NCBI GenBank assembly: GCA_012718945.1
Contig: JAAYBL010000289.1
Span: 1-36,793, forward strand
From: Bacteroidales bacterium
Lineage (GTDB): Bacteria > Bacteroidota > Bacteroidia > Bacteroidales > UBA1402
Direction of reading: 5' to 3'
Length of the DNA: 36,793 nucleotides
This document shows, piece by piece, positions 19,391-36,793 of this stretch (position 1 is the stretch's first letter; each line of letters opens with the position of its first letter). The notes below the pieces were generated by a model. That model had not been told where the DNA came from, did no database searches, and saw only the letters and a list, made by a program, of their open reading frames with translations. The translations under genes and the position numbers were made by a program.

Positions 19391-20566
19391 TCACGCCATG
19401 GGGACGGTAAAACAGAACGTGCTACCTTCACCTTGTCTACTGTCCACCCAAATACGACCGCCCTGTTTTTCCACAAACTCCTTACAAATCAACAAGCCCA
19501 ACCCCGTACCCTCCTCGTTATTGGTACCCTTGGTGGAGAGTAGTTCAGATAGGCTCCAAAGTTTGGTCATGGCCTCCTCTGTCATTCCCACCCCTTTATC
19601 GGCCAAACCGACCGTCAACATGGCATCGCTCGGACCCTGTTCAGAAAAAATGGTTACCACGCTGTCACTCCAAGAAAACTTAATCGCATTACTCACTAAA
19701 TTTCGCAGCACTGTCTTGATCATAGCCTCATCGGCAAACACCAGGGTATCTTCTGCAACCTTGACATCAAAAGTTATACGCTTGGTAGCCGCCGTCTGAT
19801 TCAAGACCTCGATGACTTCGTGACATAGTTGATCGAGTTTCATACTGCCAGGATTAAAAGGCATCTTACCCATTTGCGACCTGGACCATACCAATAAGTC
19901 ATCCAGCAGACGATACGTTTTTACGGCAGCCTCATTGATCAAACGGATGAAGGTATTCATTTCCTCCCTTGAATACTGGTCTGAATTTTCCATCAGGACC
20001 TCACTCAACCCCATTAAGGCTGTTAATGGGCTTCTAAGGTCGTGAGCCATGATCGACAAAAATTTATCCTTGGTTGCATTGGACTCCTTGAGGCTGGCGT
20101 TGACCTGATTTAATTGTTGATAAGTGGCTTCCAGGGTCACTTTTTCTCTGATAAGTTGTCGCTGCAGGTTACTTATCTCAGCATTTAAATGACTCAAACG
20201 TGTGTTATGATCAGCCAATTGTTTGGCGTCCATTCCACCCACTATCAACAACCGCTCATCCTTTCGAAAAACAAGGGCCTGGAGGGATATAAAGGTTCCT
20301 TGCGCATCGCCTATGGTGAGAAATCCGTTGTACACAGGATTTGATAGCGGGGCAGTCATGTCCAGCAATTGCTCGAATGTAGGGTTTAAAAGGGATTTCA
20401 ATGGTGAAGCACCCAGCCATTCGTACATGGAAGCATTGGTATGCAACAGGCGACCGTCGGTAGAAAATTCCGCCAGGTATATCGAAGGACTGATATGCAG
20501 CATCAACTGCATTTCCATTTGCCAGAAGATGCAGAAGTCAGTATTTTGATTAGTGGACATTGGCAT
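19391..20566 (-). CDS. Soluble PAS-like sensor histidine kinase
   Basis: 391 aa; N-terminal PAS-like region, coiled coil, H-box DKFLSIMAHDLRSPLTALMGL, N-box LRNLVSNAIKFS, G-boxes ADKGVGM and GTGLGLLICKEF; no predicted TM segment. Confidence 0.9.
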   Translation of the reverse strand: MPMSTNQNTDFCIFWQMEMQLMLHISPSIYLAEFSTDGRLLHTNASMYEWLGASPLKSLLNPTFEQLLDMTAPLSNPVYNGFLTIGDAQGTFISLQALVFRKDERLLIVGGMDAKQLADHNTRLSHLNAEISNLQRQLIREKVTLEATYQQLNQVNASLKESNATKDKFLSIMAHDLRSPLTALMGLSEVLMENSDQYSREEMNTFIRLINEAAVKTYRLLDDLLVWSRSQMGKMPFNPGSMKLDQLCHEVIEVLNQTAATKRITFDVKVAEDTLVFADEAMIKTVLRNLVSNAIKFSWSDSVVTIFSEQGPSDAMLTVGLADKGVGMTEEAMTKLWSLSELLSTKGTNNEEGTGLGLLICKEFVEKQGGRIWVDSRQGEGSTFCFTVPMA

Positions 20567-21215
20567 TGATAAATGACGCCGGGTTGGTCAACAAGGCTTT
20601 AAGAGTATATAAATCTGACAGATACGTCACATTGGAGAAAGCAAGCAACCGCTCCTGTCCACCTTTGCCAAATGCCTGACCTCCTACTAGAATGGGCAGC
20701 GAAGGAAAGATTCGACGTATGGTCTGCAGCATCTTTTCCAGGGTGGGCCAATTGAATGACAAAGCCATGGACAAGGCCAAAACCTGAGGCCGAACGCTGT
20801 TCATAAAGCGCACCAGGTCATCGGTTGGCAAGCCAGCTCCCAGAAAATGAGTAGTCCAACCCGCCAGTTCAAACACATCGGATACCATCTTGATGCCTAC
20901 TTGGTGTTGTTCATTTTCAACGCAGGCCAGCACCACCGTTTTAGGCTGTTTCCTTGTTGCAGCAATGGTTGGGTACAGGTCGTTCATGATGGCTTGCACA
21001 ATGGCCGAGGCCAGGTGCTCGGTGGCCACTCCGATGCGACCGGTTTCCCACAACACACCGATCTTGTACAAACTGCTTTTCAATAGTTGCTCATAGATAT
21101 CATCCACCGAAACGCCCTCTCTGATAAAATCGGCTACCATATTGGAAGCAAGGCTCCGTTCTCCCGCCAGGAGGGTGTTCAGAAAACCAGATTGTCTGTC
21201 AGTATCAATATCCAT
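20550..21215 (-). CDS. Stand-alone cobalamin-binding regulatory protein with CarH-like W-x9-EH motif
   Basis: Likely ATG 21215 (MDIDTDRQSG). WETGRIGVATEH = W-x9-EH; ENEQHQVG = E-x-H-x-x-G; C-terminal LPILVGGQAFG. Overlaps the kinase start by 17 bp. Confidence 0.88.
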   Translation of the reverse strand: MDIDTDRQSGFLNTLLAGERSLASNMVADFIREGVSVDDIYEQLLKSSLYKIGVLWETGRIGVATEHLASAIVQAIMNDLYPTIAATRKQPKTVVLACVENEQHQVGIKMVSDVFELAGWTTHFLGAGLPTDDLVRFMNSVRPQVLALSMALSFNWPTLEKMLQTIRRIFPSLPILVGGQAFGKGGQERLLAFSNVTYLSDLYTLKALLTNPASFINANVH

Positions 21216-21260
21216 CAGTGAAAACCGTTGAGTGTTCTGAGGTATGAACAAGTATAATGG

Positions 21261-21268
21261 TATTTTTG
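21261..21268 (+). promoter_or_regulatory. -7 element of the glutathione peroxidase promoter
   Basis: TATTTTTG (TAnnTTTG) about 49 nt before ATG 21317; the ORF-track start at 21257 overlaps it. Confidence 0.45.
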
Positions 21269-21936: not shown

Positions 21937-23067
21937 ATGATACACCGCCTTGCCTATTCCCCCTCAGCGTCACTCTCTTTCCACGAAGCCTTTGCTGATT
22001 GCCTCCAACAAATTGACAGACTGACAGCTGTCAAGCCCATTCTTGGGATTGTCTTTTTTGTCAACGCCAACACCATGGCCGATTACCACACCGAAGCGGC
22101 AAGCATCTTATCAACGATGGACCAATCTGAAAGGAGAATGCCTGCCAATATCCTGGCTCAGCCCAACACAGCTGCCGTTTCGATGGAAATGTGGATAGAT
22201 GAGGAGGCCAAGGATCTGAAGTATCTTGAGACCGATGGTCAGCGTTACACACGCTACACGACCAGAGGCAGCCAGGCACTGCTGGCACTGGGTCTGCATG
22301 CCTCGCCCGAACTGCCTTTGCAGTCGCAAGCGGAAGCCACTTTTCAACACCTGTACAACGTGCTTGAACAAGAAGGGCTCACATTGACCGACATTGTTCG
22401 TCAATGGAATTATGTACCAGAAATCCTGGCCCTGCAAATCCATGAGGGCAAAACACTTCAACACTATCAAGTATTCAATGAAGTCAGAAAGGCTTGTTAC
22501 GCCAAACACACCTTCAGACACGGTTACCCCGCAGCCACAGGCATTGGTGTGAAAACGGGTCCTTTTTCCATTGATGTCTTGGCACTGGCCTCACATGCAG
22601 CGGTCGACAAAAAAGGACTATCCAATCCCAACCAACAAAATGCGTACCAATATGATCAACAACAGTTGATTGGCGATGCACTCTGTGGTCAACAAAAGAA
22701 TCCCCCTTTGTTCGAAAGGGCCAAACTTCTGGCCTGGGAAGACACGGCTCAGGTCATAGTCTCAGGCACAGCCTCCATCCTGGGTCAGGAAACGGTTGGG
22801 CAGGGCGATGTAAGCCATCAAACAGAAGTCGCCATTCAAAACATGCTAGACCTGCTCGCACCGGCAGTGACAGGCAGACAGAAACATTTTGAGTTCAACG
22901 GATTGAGGGTCTATATTAAACAAAAGAAAGACTACAAGGCCGTAAAAGATGTCTGCCAGCGCTTTTTCCCAGGCATACCCACCGTTTATGTCCAGGCCGA
23001 TGTCTGCCGTGACAACCTTTTGATGGAAATTGAAGGAGAAGCTGTCGAATTAAACGAAGCCCCATGA
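21937..23067 (+). CDS. Chorismatase (FkbO/Hyg5)-like, Rid-fold protein
   Basis: 376 aa; RQWNYVPEIL, HYQVFNEVRKACY, YPAATGIGVKTGPFSIDVLALAS, VIVSGTASILGQETVGQGDVSHQTEVAIQNMLDLL resemble FkbO/Hyg5 chorismatases. Confidence 0.6.
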   Translation: MIHRLAYSPSASLSFHEAFADCLQQIDRLTAVKPILGIVFFVNANTMADYHTEAASILSTMDQSERRMPANILAQPNTAAVSMEMWIDEEAKDLKYLETDGQRYTRYTTRGSQALLALGLHASPELPLQSQAEATFQHLYNVLEQEGLTLTDIVRQWNYVPEILALQIHEGKTLQHYQVFNEVRKACYAKHTFRHGYPAATGIGVKTGPFSIDVLALASHAAVDKKGLSNPNQQNAYQYDQQQLIGDALCGQQKNPPLFERAKLLAWEDTAQVIVSGTASILGQETVGQGDVSHQTEVAIQNMLDLLAPAVTGRQKHFEFNGLRVYIKQKKDYKAVKDVCQRFFPGIPTVYVQADVCRDNLLMEIEGEAVELNEAP

Positions 23068-24977
23068 AAACGACCACACCCCCAAAAGGCAAAGCCCCAA
23101 TAGAAAGGACTCAACGTCTTGCAGCCCCCCAGCCTCCCAGATGGCTGAACGCTGTCTGGATGCTGCTCTTTATCGGTTTTGCCCTCTACATGACGTTGTT
23201 CAGCAACCGTTATTTACTATGGGAACTGCACGACCAAAACCTGTTTGTCGCCGATAAAGCCTATCTGGCAGACTGCCTCAATGGCATTGGTGGTTTCACG
23301 GTCTACCTGGCAACCTTTCTCAACCAATTTTTCATTAACCCGACCTTGGGTAGTCTGATATACCTGGCTCTCCTCGTTTTAGTGGTTCTAACCACAGCCA
23401 AGGCTTTCAAATTGAAAGGCTGGGCATTCCCGCTCGCCTTGATACCCGCACTATTGTTGGTGCTGAGCTTGGTACAAAACGGTTACATGATTTATTTGCT
23501 CAAACTGGAAGGTTTCACCTATGTCAGCATCCTGGGAACCCTGATTGCCCTCCTGGCGCCTCTGCTGGCTGACCGTTTTAAAAGCCTTACAGGAAAAAGT
23601 GTGTTCACACTGGTTTACCTATTGGTAGCCTACCCCCTGGCCGGCGCCTACGGATTGGCCGGCGGTCTCTTGCTAATGCTTATCTATCTAACGGACGCAC
23701 TGGTTAACAAACAATGGAACAACTTGCTGCCTGCCGCATTGGCACTGGCCGGCACACTGGTATTCCCTCAGCTCTACTACCTATGGGTGTACGAAACCAC
23801 GATGCGCGAACTTCTTTATGTTAGCAACCTGCCTGACTACCTTTGGGATGGCGCCGAACGGGTATTGTGGTTGCCTTACCTACTGCTGCTGGGGTTCGGT
23901 ATCGTTGTTACCCTATGCACCCGATTACACCTGACATTCAGCAAAGCCCTCCGTTTCTGGCACCTGGCCCCCCTGTTGATGGTGTTGCTGTGTGTCACCC
24001 TGGTCGTCAGGAAACAATACAAGGATGCTAATTTCACCACCCAGATTGCCATGATGGAGGCCACCGAACGGCAGGATTGGAACAAGGTGTTGCGCCTGCT
24101 CAAAGAGACCACCGACGAACCGACCCGCCTCATGGTGATGCACAAAAACCTGGCTTTAATGAAATTGGGCAGACAAGGTGACACCCAGTACAGCTACCCC
24201 GATGGCAACAAACCGATGAACTACCAACGGCGTCTGGTAGAAGTACAGTTGGCCGGTCCCTCTTTTTACTTCCATTATGGAAAAAGCAATTACTGCTACA
24301 AATGGTGTATGGAAGGCATGGTGGAATACGGCATGAGTCCCACCTATCTTAAGTATTTTGTACTGAGCAGCCTGGTCAATGGAGAGCCCAAACTAGCCGA
24401 CAAGTACAACAAAATCCTGGCCAAATCGCCCGTGCACAAGGGCTGGGCCAAAGCCCATCAACCACTCATCGATGATACCGCTCTGGTAGCCACCGACCCG
24501 TTCTTTGCCAAAGTATTGCCTTTGACCAAATACGACAGCTATCTGGATGGTGATTTTGGATTATTGGAACAATACATCCGCAGGGATTTCGCCCACATGA
24601 TCGGGGGACCTCCGGAAATGGTGGAGTTGTGCATATTATTCAACATGGAACTCAAGGACATCGACCGTTTTTGGCCTGCCTTCATGTTTTGGATGCAAAA
24701 AGGTCAACCCTTGCGTAAGCACATGCAGGAAGCTGCCCTTTTGTTTCAACACCTTGAGCGGAAATTCCCCTTAGACACCTCCAGGTTCGACCAGGCCGTA
24801 CTGAACCGGTTTCAAGACTTCGTGTCCATGGTCAACCAATACGCCAACTACCCGGAAAGTGCTGTTGTCGAACTGTATAAACAACGTTTCGGCGACACCT
24901 ATTGGTTTTACTATTTCTTCGTCAAAGACCACAGCAACCGCGACGCCAAAGGCGAACAAAAACCCTATTCTTCCTGA
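23064..24977 (+). CDS. DUF6057-like polytopic membrane protein, copy 2
   Basis: 637 aa; DEPTRLMVMHKNLALMKLG, CYKWCMEGMVEYGMSPTYLKYFVLSSLVNGEPKLADKYNKIL, YWFYYFFV; paralogue of 12843..14774. Start overlaps the upstream stop (ATGA). Confidence 0.78.
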   Translation: MKTTTPPKGKAPIERTQRLAAPQPPRWLNAVWMLLFIGFALYMTLFSNRYLLWELHDQNLFVADKAYLADCLNGIGGFTVYLATFLNQFFINPTLGSLIYLALLVLVVLTTAKAFKLKGWAFPLALIPALLLVLSLVQNGYMIYLLKLEGFTYVSILGTLIALLAPLLADRFKSLTGKSVFTLVYLLVAYPLAGAYGLAGGLLLMLIYLTDALVNKQWNNLLPAALALAGTLVFPQLYYLWVYETTMRELLYVSNLPDYLWDGAERVLWLPYLLLLGFGIVVTLCTRLHLTFSKALRFWHLAPLLMVLLCVTLVVRKQYKDANFTTQIAMMEATERQDWNKVLRLLKETTDEPTRLMVMHKNLALMKLGRQGDTQYSYPDGNKPMNYQRRLVEVQLAGPSFYFHYGKSNYCYKWCMEGMVEYGMSPTYLKYFVLSSLVNGEPKLADKYNKILAKSPVHKGWAKAHQPLIDDTALVATDPFFAKVLPLTKYDSYLDGDFGLLEQYIRRDFAHMIGGPPEMVELCILFNMELKDIDRFWPAFMFWMQKGQPLRKHMQEAALLFQHLERKFPLDTSRFDQAVLNRFQDFVSMVNQYANYPESAVVELYKQRFGDTYWFYYFFVKDHSNRDAKGEQKPYSS

Positions 24978-36717: not shown

Positions 36718-36793
36718 GGGCGTTTAGCTCAGCTGGTTCAGAGCATCTGCCTTACAAGCAGAGGGTCGGGGGTTCGAATCCCTCAACGCCCAC
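36718..36793 (+). tRNA. tRNA-Val(TAC), 3' end at window edge
   Basis: Acceptor GGGCGTT/AACGCCC, D-arm GCTC...GAGC, anticodon arm TCTGC-CTTACAA-GCAGA, T-arm with TTCGAAT. Confidence 0.95.

Follow-up and report, generated by a model that had tools for sequence, protein, structure and literature searches.

Photoreception by means of B12 has been established in transcription factors and in a diguanylate cyclase. Among the transcription factors, CarH/LitR (TtCarH, 5C8A and 5C8D) and CtMerR (8JBS) combine a MerR domain with a cobalamin-binding domain (CBD) that carries the motifs W-x9-EH and E-x-H, whereas in AerR of Rhodobacter (7TE2) the CBD stands alone and modulates another protein, the transcription factor CrtJ. 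In the photocobilins SasPcob and AbPcob (8J2W, 8J2X, 8J2Y), the roles of the Trp, the EH pair and the lower His at the adenosyl group and the cobalt have been described, and a stand-alone photocobilin/CBD protein in its light state makes contact with a separate enzyme and thereby activates it (PMC10979010). The published signature of light-responsive CBDs (SignatureFinder) comprises GxxW, EH, GxxH and GxxxP. The residue that follows the Trp is Arg in CtMerR, Gln in SasPcob and Tyr in AbDPcob, all of them proven photoreceptors (PMC11796333); in TtCarH, the H132A substitution at this position leaves the protein mostly tetrameric after light, and the final light state requires O2. Globins are also known to be linked with B12 domains and with signalling proteins (PMC10151467; PMC10979010), and in the BBAG-2/photoglobin cassettes, which are described with heme oxygenase or bilin reductase, a stand-alone globin gene adjoins the gene of a B12-binding protein, some of these globins binding biliverdin (PMC10151467). 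In the accessible literature, no account was found of a CBD working with a histidine kinase in trans, or of the PAS-like partner module described below. The photoglobin study of Schneider (2022) reportedly associates globins with B12 domains and signalling proteins, and may already list kinase neighbours.

The locus compared here with these systems lies in a stretch of 36,793 nucleotides from a Bacteroidales bacterium (contig JAAYBL010000289.1), which was analysed as a whole and is referred to as the window. The evidence suggests, with a probability of about 0.6, that this locus encodes a two-gene B12 sensory system working in trans, in which a CBD protein would act on its own histidine kinase (HK), the input probably being green light sensed through photolysis of adenosylcobalamin (AdoCbl).

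The cobalamin-binding protein and its nearest relatives

The CBD protein (221 aa) is encoded on the reverse strand at 20550..21215 by an ORF that starts with the ATG at 21215 and whose stop codon ends at 20550. Pfam recognizes B12-binding_2 at residues 11-78 (E 2e-11) and B12-binding at residues 93-182 (E 3e-16), and the homology seen in family alignment A1 and with the PDB relatives assigns to the protein a four-helix bundle joined to a Rossmann-type domain. Since these are its only Pfam domains, no DNA-binding domain, including one of the N-terminal MerR type, is present, as an earlier sequence-only reading of this DNA had maintained. The W-x9-EH and E-x-H-x-x-G motifs on which that reading was founded were located at the codons it had named, all on the reverse strand: W56 (21048..21050), which corresponds to W131 of TtCarH and W61 of SasPcob and is predicted to stack on the adenosyl group; E66-H67 (21015..21020); and H104 (20904..20906), the predicted lower axial ligand, which lies within E102-x-H104-x2-G107 and 48 residues C-terminal of W56. 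In a profile alignment, the Trp, the Glu-His pair and the lower His of the window protein coincide with those of the photocobilin crystal structure (SasPcob), and W56, E66, H67 and H104 are invariant in 70 of 70 distinct CBD relatives, in every family group. This invariance of all the predicted ligand-binding residues speaks against the idea that the CBD has ceased to bind cobalamin and is purely a structural regulator of the kinase. That idea, which we hold to be improbable, draws on the fact that binding is here predicted from sequence, and on the CarH paralogue CarA of Myxococcus, which functions independently of B12 (PMC9304148).

With regard to the published light signature, GxxW is represented by G53-W56 and the EH ten residues past the Trp by E66-H67, both invariant in 70/70 relatives, and GxxxP is represented by G126-P130. 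The window protein departs from GxxH, reading N101-E-Q-H104 (NxxH), in which the invariant His is retained and the Gly is replaced by Asn. The Gly is found in only 3 of 30 HK-linked stand-alone CBDs and in 8 of 14 CBDs fused to a globin; because the other 27 of the 30 deviate at this residue, a search with the strict GxxH signature would miss them, and thus nearly all of the HK-linked stand-alone clade.

A profile search of the PDB ranked SasPcob first (E 3.5e-29), followed by AbPcob (3e-23), CtMerR (5e-23), methionine synthases (from 2.6e-16) and TtCarH (1.9e-11), and the similarity to AerR was weak (E 3e-4); the top NCBIfam model was CarH, with 58.7 bits against a cut-off of 400. The motif had initially been taken as the signature of CarH/LitR; the motif itself was read correctly, but the nearest characterised CBDs are those of the photocobilins and CtMerR rather than that of CarH. 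Membership in CarH was rejected because the protein lacks a MerR domain and an equivalent of His132 and falls below the NCBIfam cut-off, and its putative output, unlike that of CarH/LitR and CtMerR, would run through a kinase in trans. Membership in AerR was rejected on the weak similarity and because the neighbouring gene encodes a kinase and not CrtJ/PpsR, the transcription factor being what AerR modulates. The photocobilins are the closest solved CBDs, and the window protein shares with them a CBD with W, EH and E/DxH; however, its 221 aa include no fused bilin-binding globin, no stand-alone globin gene of the A2 family (see below) is present in its genome, and its partner is a histidine kinase instead of a diguanylate cyclase. 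On sequence grounds, it is classified as a member of the CBD superfamily that is neither a CarH, nor an AerR, nor, lacking the globin, a photocobilin in the strict sense, and its predicted working resembles that of B12 photoreceptors of the photocobilin/CarH type.

The same comparisons make it very unlikely that the CBD carries a corrinoid for a methyltransferase, in the manner of MtaC, MtbC or MetH, and adjoins a kinase by coincidence. Models of corrinoid proteins do score weakly (MtgC, 1.2e-12; pyl_corrinoid, 1.6e-8), but neither the MetH nor the corrinoid-carrier sequences in these genomes contain W-x9-EH, no methyltransferase was found among the neighbours examined, both the top NCBIfam model and the top PDB matches are photoreceptors (CarH and photocobilins, respectively), and the linkage with a kinase is recurrent. 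The differences in motif, gene neighbourhood and profile ranks led to the rejection of the carrier.

Directly after the Trp, the window protein has Glu (E57), as do 52 of 56 stand-alone relatives; most fused globin-CBD members have Gln at this position. Because the residue is Glu and not His, bis-His ligation of the CarH type is impossible in the window CBD. The sequence-only reading had gone further, suggesting that photochemistry may be altered or absent; this second step does not hold as an argument, since Arg, Gln or Tyr occupies the same position in proteins that respond to light (PMC11796333). The Glu nevertheless lends some weight to an alternative in which the same partners work by the same in-trans mechanism and the input is chemical, namely the availability of AdoCbl or the state of the bound cobalt with respect to redox and O2: the bis-His light state of CarH is excluded, and TtCarH with H132A mostly fails to dissociate. 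This alternative is also helped by the need of TtCarH for O2 to reach its final light state. Against this alternative, which we consider possible and rather less than likely, stand the light responses just mentioned and the invariance (70/70) of the adenosyl-contacting Trp and EH, a hallmark of proven photoreceptors.

The overlapping kinase gene

The second gene, on the same strand at 19391..20566 (ATG at 20566, stop ending at 19391), encodes a soluble sensor HK of 391 aa. The two ORFs share 17 bp (20550..20566, reverse strand), as the sequence-only reading had stated, or 11 bp if the HK starts at its second ATG (20560), and translational coupling through this overlap is likely. Pfam identified a HisKA dimerisation/phosphoacceptor domain (19874..20071, reverse strand; codon of H175 at 20044-20042) and a HATPase_c catalytic domain (19397..19732, reverse strand), and the signature boxes of histidine kinases are conserved (AHDL in the H-box, N289/N293, DxGxG and GTGLGL in the HATPase; alignment A4, Pfam). 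The first ~150 residues are modelled by AlphaFold (pLDDT 85.5) as a PAS-like domain at about residues 28-112 (20231..20485, reverse strand) and a coiled coil with the conserved sequence LNxEIxNLQRxL (alignment A5). No Pfam PAS match was obtained for the HK; the model topology and full-length Foldseek matches to PAS/LOV kinases nonetheless support a PAS-like N-terminus, in line with the earlier description of the kinase. Matches of the A5 profile to designed TIM barrels in the PDB were set aside as apparent local composition matches. The layout PAS-coiled coil-HisKA-HATPase is shared with the PAS/LOV histidine kinases ThkA and YF1, from which the window HK differs in lacking a Pfam PAS match and in having a PAS-like domain almost confined to genomes that contain the CBD partner.

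On one side of the pair lies a glutathione peroxidase gene in divergent orientation, on the other a rhamnosidase-like gene in convergent orientation, indicating a self-contained two-gene unit. As had been noted from the sequence, no response regulator occurs beside the kinase or among the other window neighbour genes examined. An Rfam scan of the window identified no cobalamin riboswitch, its single match being a tRNA (36718-36792), and a scan for promoters and terminators gave no excess over shuffled sequence. Elsewhere in the window, at 21937-24977, a chorismatase gene (FkbO/Hyg5-like) is followed by a DUF6057 gene, the two with overlapping ends.

Conservation of the pair and its dedicated module

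The DNA around each of the 70 distinct related CBD sequences was read. At 44 of these loci, the CBD is linked to an HK whose gene lies directly downstream of it or is separated from it by a single globin gene; the genes often overlap or nearly touch. Of these 44, 23 have a stand-alone CBD, a kinase and a gene for a ~153-aa globin in the order CBD-globin-HK or CBD-HK-globin; 7, including the window, have a stand-alone CBD and a kinase without the globin; and 14 have the globin fused N-terminally to the CBD with the kinase directly downstream. The remaining 26 loci, which lack a kinase, form one clade in the tree, apart from the single exception L015. Members of this kinase-less clade (L109-L134) retain the full W/EH/H motif and lie beside PAP2-type and alpha-amylase genes or beside Mla transport genes. 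Two kinases in tandem follow the CBD and globin at L007, L008, L016 and L145. Relatives outside Bacteroidota were found in Ignavibacteriota (L004) and Desulfobacteraceae (L016); the CBD-HK pair is conserved in Bacteroidota and sporadic beyond. Together, the invariance of the motif (70/70) and the recurrence of the pairing in dozens of genomes show that their association exceeds chance, and the adjacency proposed for examination in related genomes proved strongly conserved.

The N-terminal domain of the HK follows the CBD closely. A search of 788 Bacteroidota genomes with profile A5 identified this domain in 23, of which 22 carry it at the CBD locus, including two contig-end cases settled by reading the DNA. 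The profile had been trained on many of the loci later found, but G146, G486, G502, G503, G606 and G643 lay outside the training set and were found as well. A set of 38 genomes gave one copy of the domain in every one of the 21 that have a stand-alone CBD linked to an HK, and no copy in the 17 controls. The sole genome with the domain and no CBD match at the threshold used, G705, contains a pseudogene (L173:2806-3515), in which a frameshift splits the kinase and the frame is truncated into a transporter-like one; this decay, a single case, would be expected if the kinase were useless without the CBD. Across 28 loci, CBD distances correlate with those of the HK N-terminus at r 0.68 and with those of the HK core at r 0.49, the N-terminus and its own core correlating at r 0.48; all three values are significant by permutation, and part of each reflects shared descent. 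The domain is attached to both HDLR-type and NtrB-like HELNNP kinase cores, the kinases that accompany fused globin-CBD proteins carry a homologous domain (hhalign E 2e-8), and unlinked kinases of the same loci do not match it.

These observations make it very unlikely that CBD and HK are neighbours merely through shared ancestry, with no functional contact. The 26 related CBDs without an HK, almost all in one clade, fit such a view and indicate that the CBD can act without the kinase; however, the HK N-terminal domain is nearly one-to-one with the CBD, kinase cores have been swapped behind a constant N-terminus, the kinase decays where the CBD is missing, and gene order varies (CBD-HK, CBD-globin-HK, CBD-HK-globin, fused). 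The co-occurrence of their sequences argues that CBD and HK very probably form one sensor.

The ~153-aa protein of the relatives gives no Pfam match over the cut-off, and an initial suspicion that its gene encoded a response regulator was ruled out by profile and fold matches to globins. Profile comparison relates it to the N-terminal domain of the fused globin-CBD proteins (hhalign probability 92, E 5.5e-7); that domain in turn hits allophycocyanins (2e-10) and the globin portion of photocobilins, and the AlphaFold model of the ~153-aa protein (pLDDT 94) retrieves globins and allophycocyanins as top Foldseek hits (probability 1.0, TM about 0.6-0.68, E > 0.01). By these profile and model comparisons, the protein is a phycobiliprotein-like globin. 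Alignment A2 contains L005:5614-6075, L006:5611-6054, L143:2550-2996 and 18 others. L006 represents the culturable Geofilum rubicundum, which has CBD, globin and HK as three genes. In 18 of 21 genomes searched, the globin occurs once and only at the CBD-HK locus; it is absent genome-wide from the other three, which are the window's own genome (G000), its congener G002 and G035. The window and three other globin-less loci are nested inside a clade of globin bearers (85/94; 96/92 for the enclosing clade), and G035 groups with the globin-bearing G541 (100/100); these positions indicate that the globin has probably been lost at least twice. The pair that the sequence-only reading had singled out is therefore real and conserved, but represents a reduced form of a larger system that includes a separate or fused globin, a feature most relatives share with the photocobilins.

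Of 45 genomes searched for heme oxygenase (PF01126), 44 have no match, and alignment A2 shows no evident counterpart to the covalent bilin Cys of phycobiliproteins, so that biliverdin binding by the globin in these bacteria appears doubtful. In these respects, in the loss of the globin from the window and in having a kinase as third partner, the present loci differ from BBAG-2/photoglobin cassettes. The sole PF01126 match, a 472-aa protein (E 1.5e-18; L166:2649-4067, reverse strand), lies on contig C118 of the window's own globin-less genome, possibly as a binning error. A sensor of chemical input gains some plausibility from the lack of an obvious bilin source even in globin-bearing relatives, from the retention of CBD and HK in the window lineage after the loss of the globin, and from the record names of several relatives, which suggest that they come from sediment, digester or groundwater bins.

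Proposed mechanism and its meaning

In the proposed light-sensing system, the CBD would bind AdoCbl base-off/His-on through H104, with W56 and E66-H67 placed around the adenosyl group on the upper face, in the way known from CarH and the photocobilins; the genome of the window encodes an AdoCbl-forming PduO-type adenosyltransferase. A change in ligand state would alter the conformation or oligomer state of the CBD, and the PAS-like domain at the N-terminus of the overlapping HK may read this change by touching the CBD directly, a mode of action for which the activation of a separate enzyme by a stand-alone light-state protein offers a precedent (PMC10979010). The coiled coil would relay the change to the HisKA/HATPase core, and the kinase would presumably address a response regulator encoded elsewhere. 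One CBD-linked kinase (L107:4115-5689) carries a C-terminal receiver domain, a hint to a phosphorelay output. Green light, with loss of the adenosyl group by photolysis, is the most probable input; what speaks for it over cobalamin or redox status is that the residues contacting the adenosyl group never vary among the relatives and are those diagnostic of proven photoreceptors. Points against light are the NxxH in place of GxxH, the lack of a His after the Trp, the mostly tetrameric H132A variant of TtCarH, and the need for O2 set against a probably anaerobic life of many of these bacteria. Dark groundwater is a possible source of the nearest relatives that lack the globin. Two of them, L011 and L013, carry "HGW" names, which we take to denote deep groundwater.

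At about even odds, the locus represents a family of B12 photoreceptors that drive two-component signalling in trans, in which an AdoCbl-binding CBD would dock on a partner-specific PAS-like module common to otherwise different kinases, and in which a detachable phycobiliprotein-like globin would work without heme oxygenase and have been discarded in the window lineage. If this is true, B12, as a reporter of light, cobalamin or redox status, would be tied to phosphorelay across Bacteroidota; the pair would provide optogenetics with a compact kinase module responsive to green light, and its relatives, with the globin fused, separate or lost, would form a natural series for probing the role of the globin.
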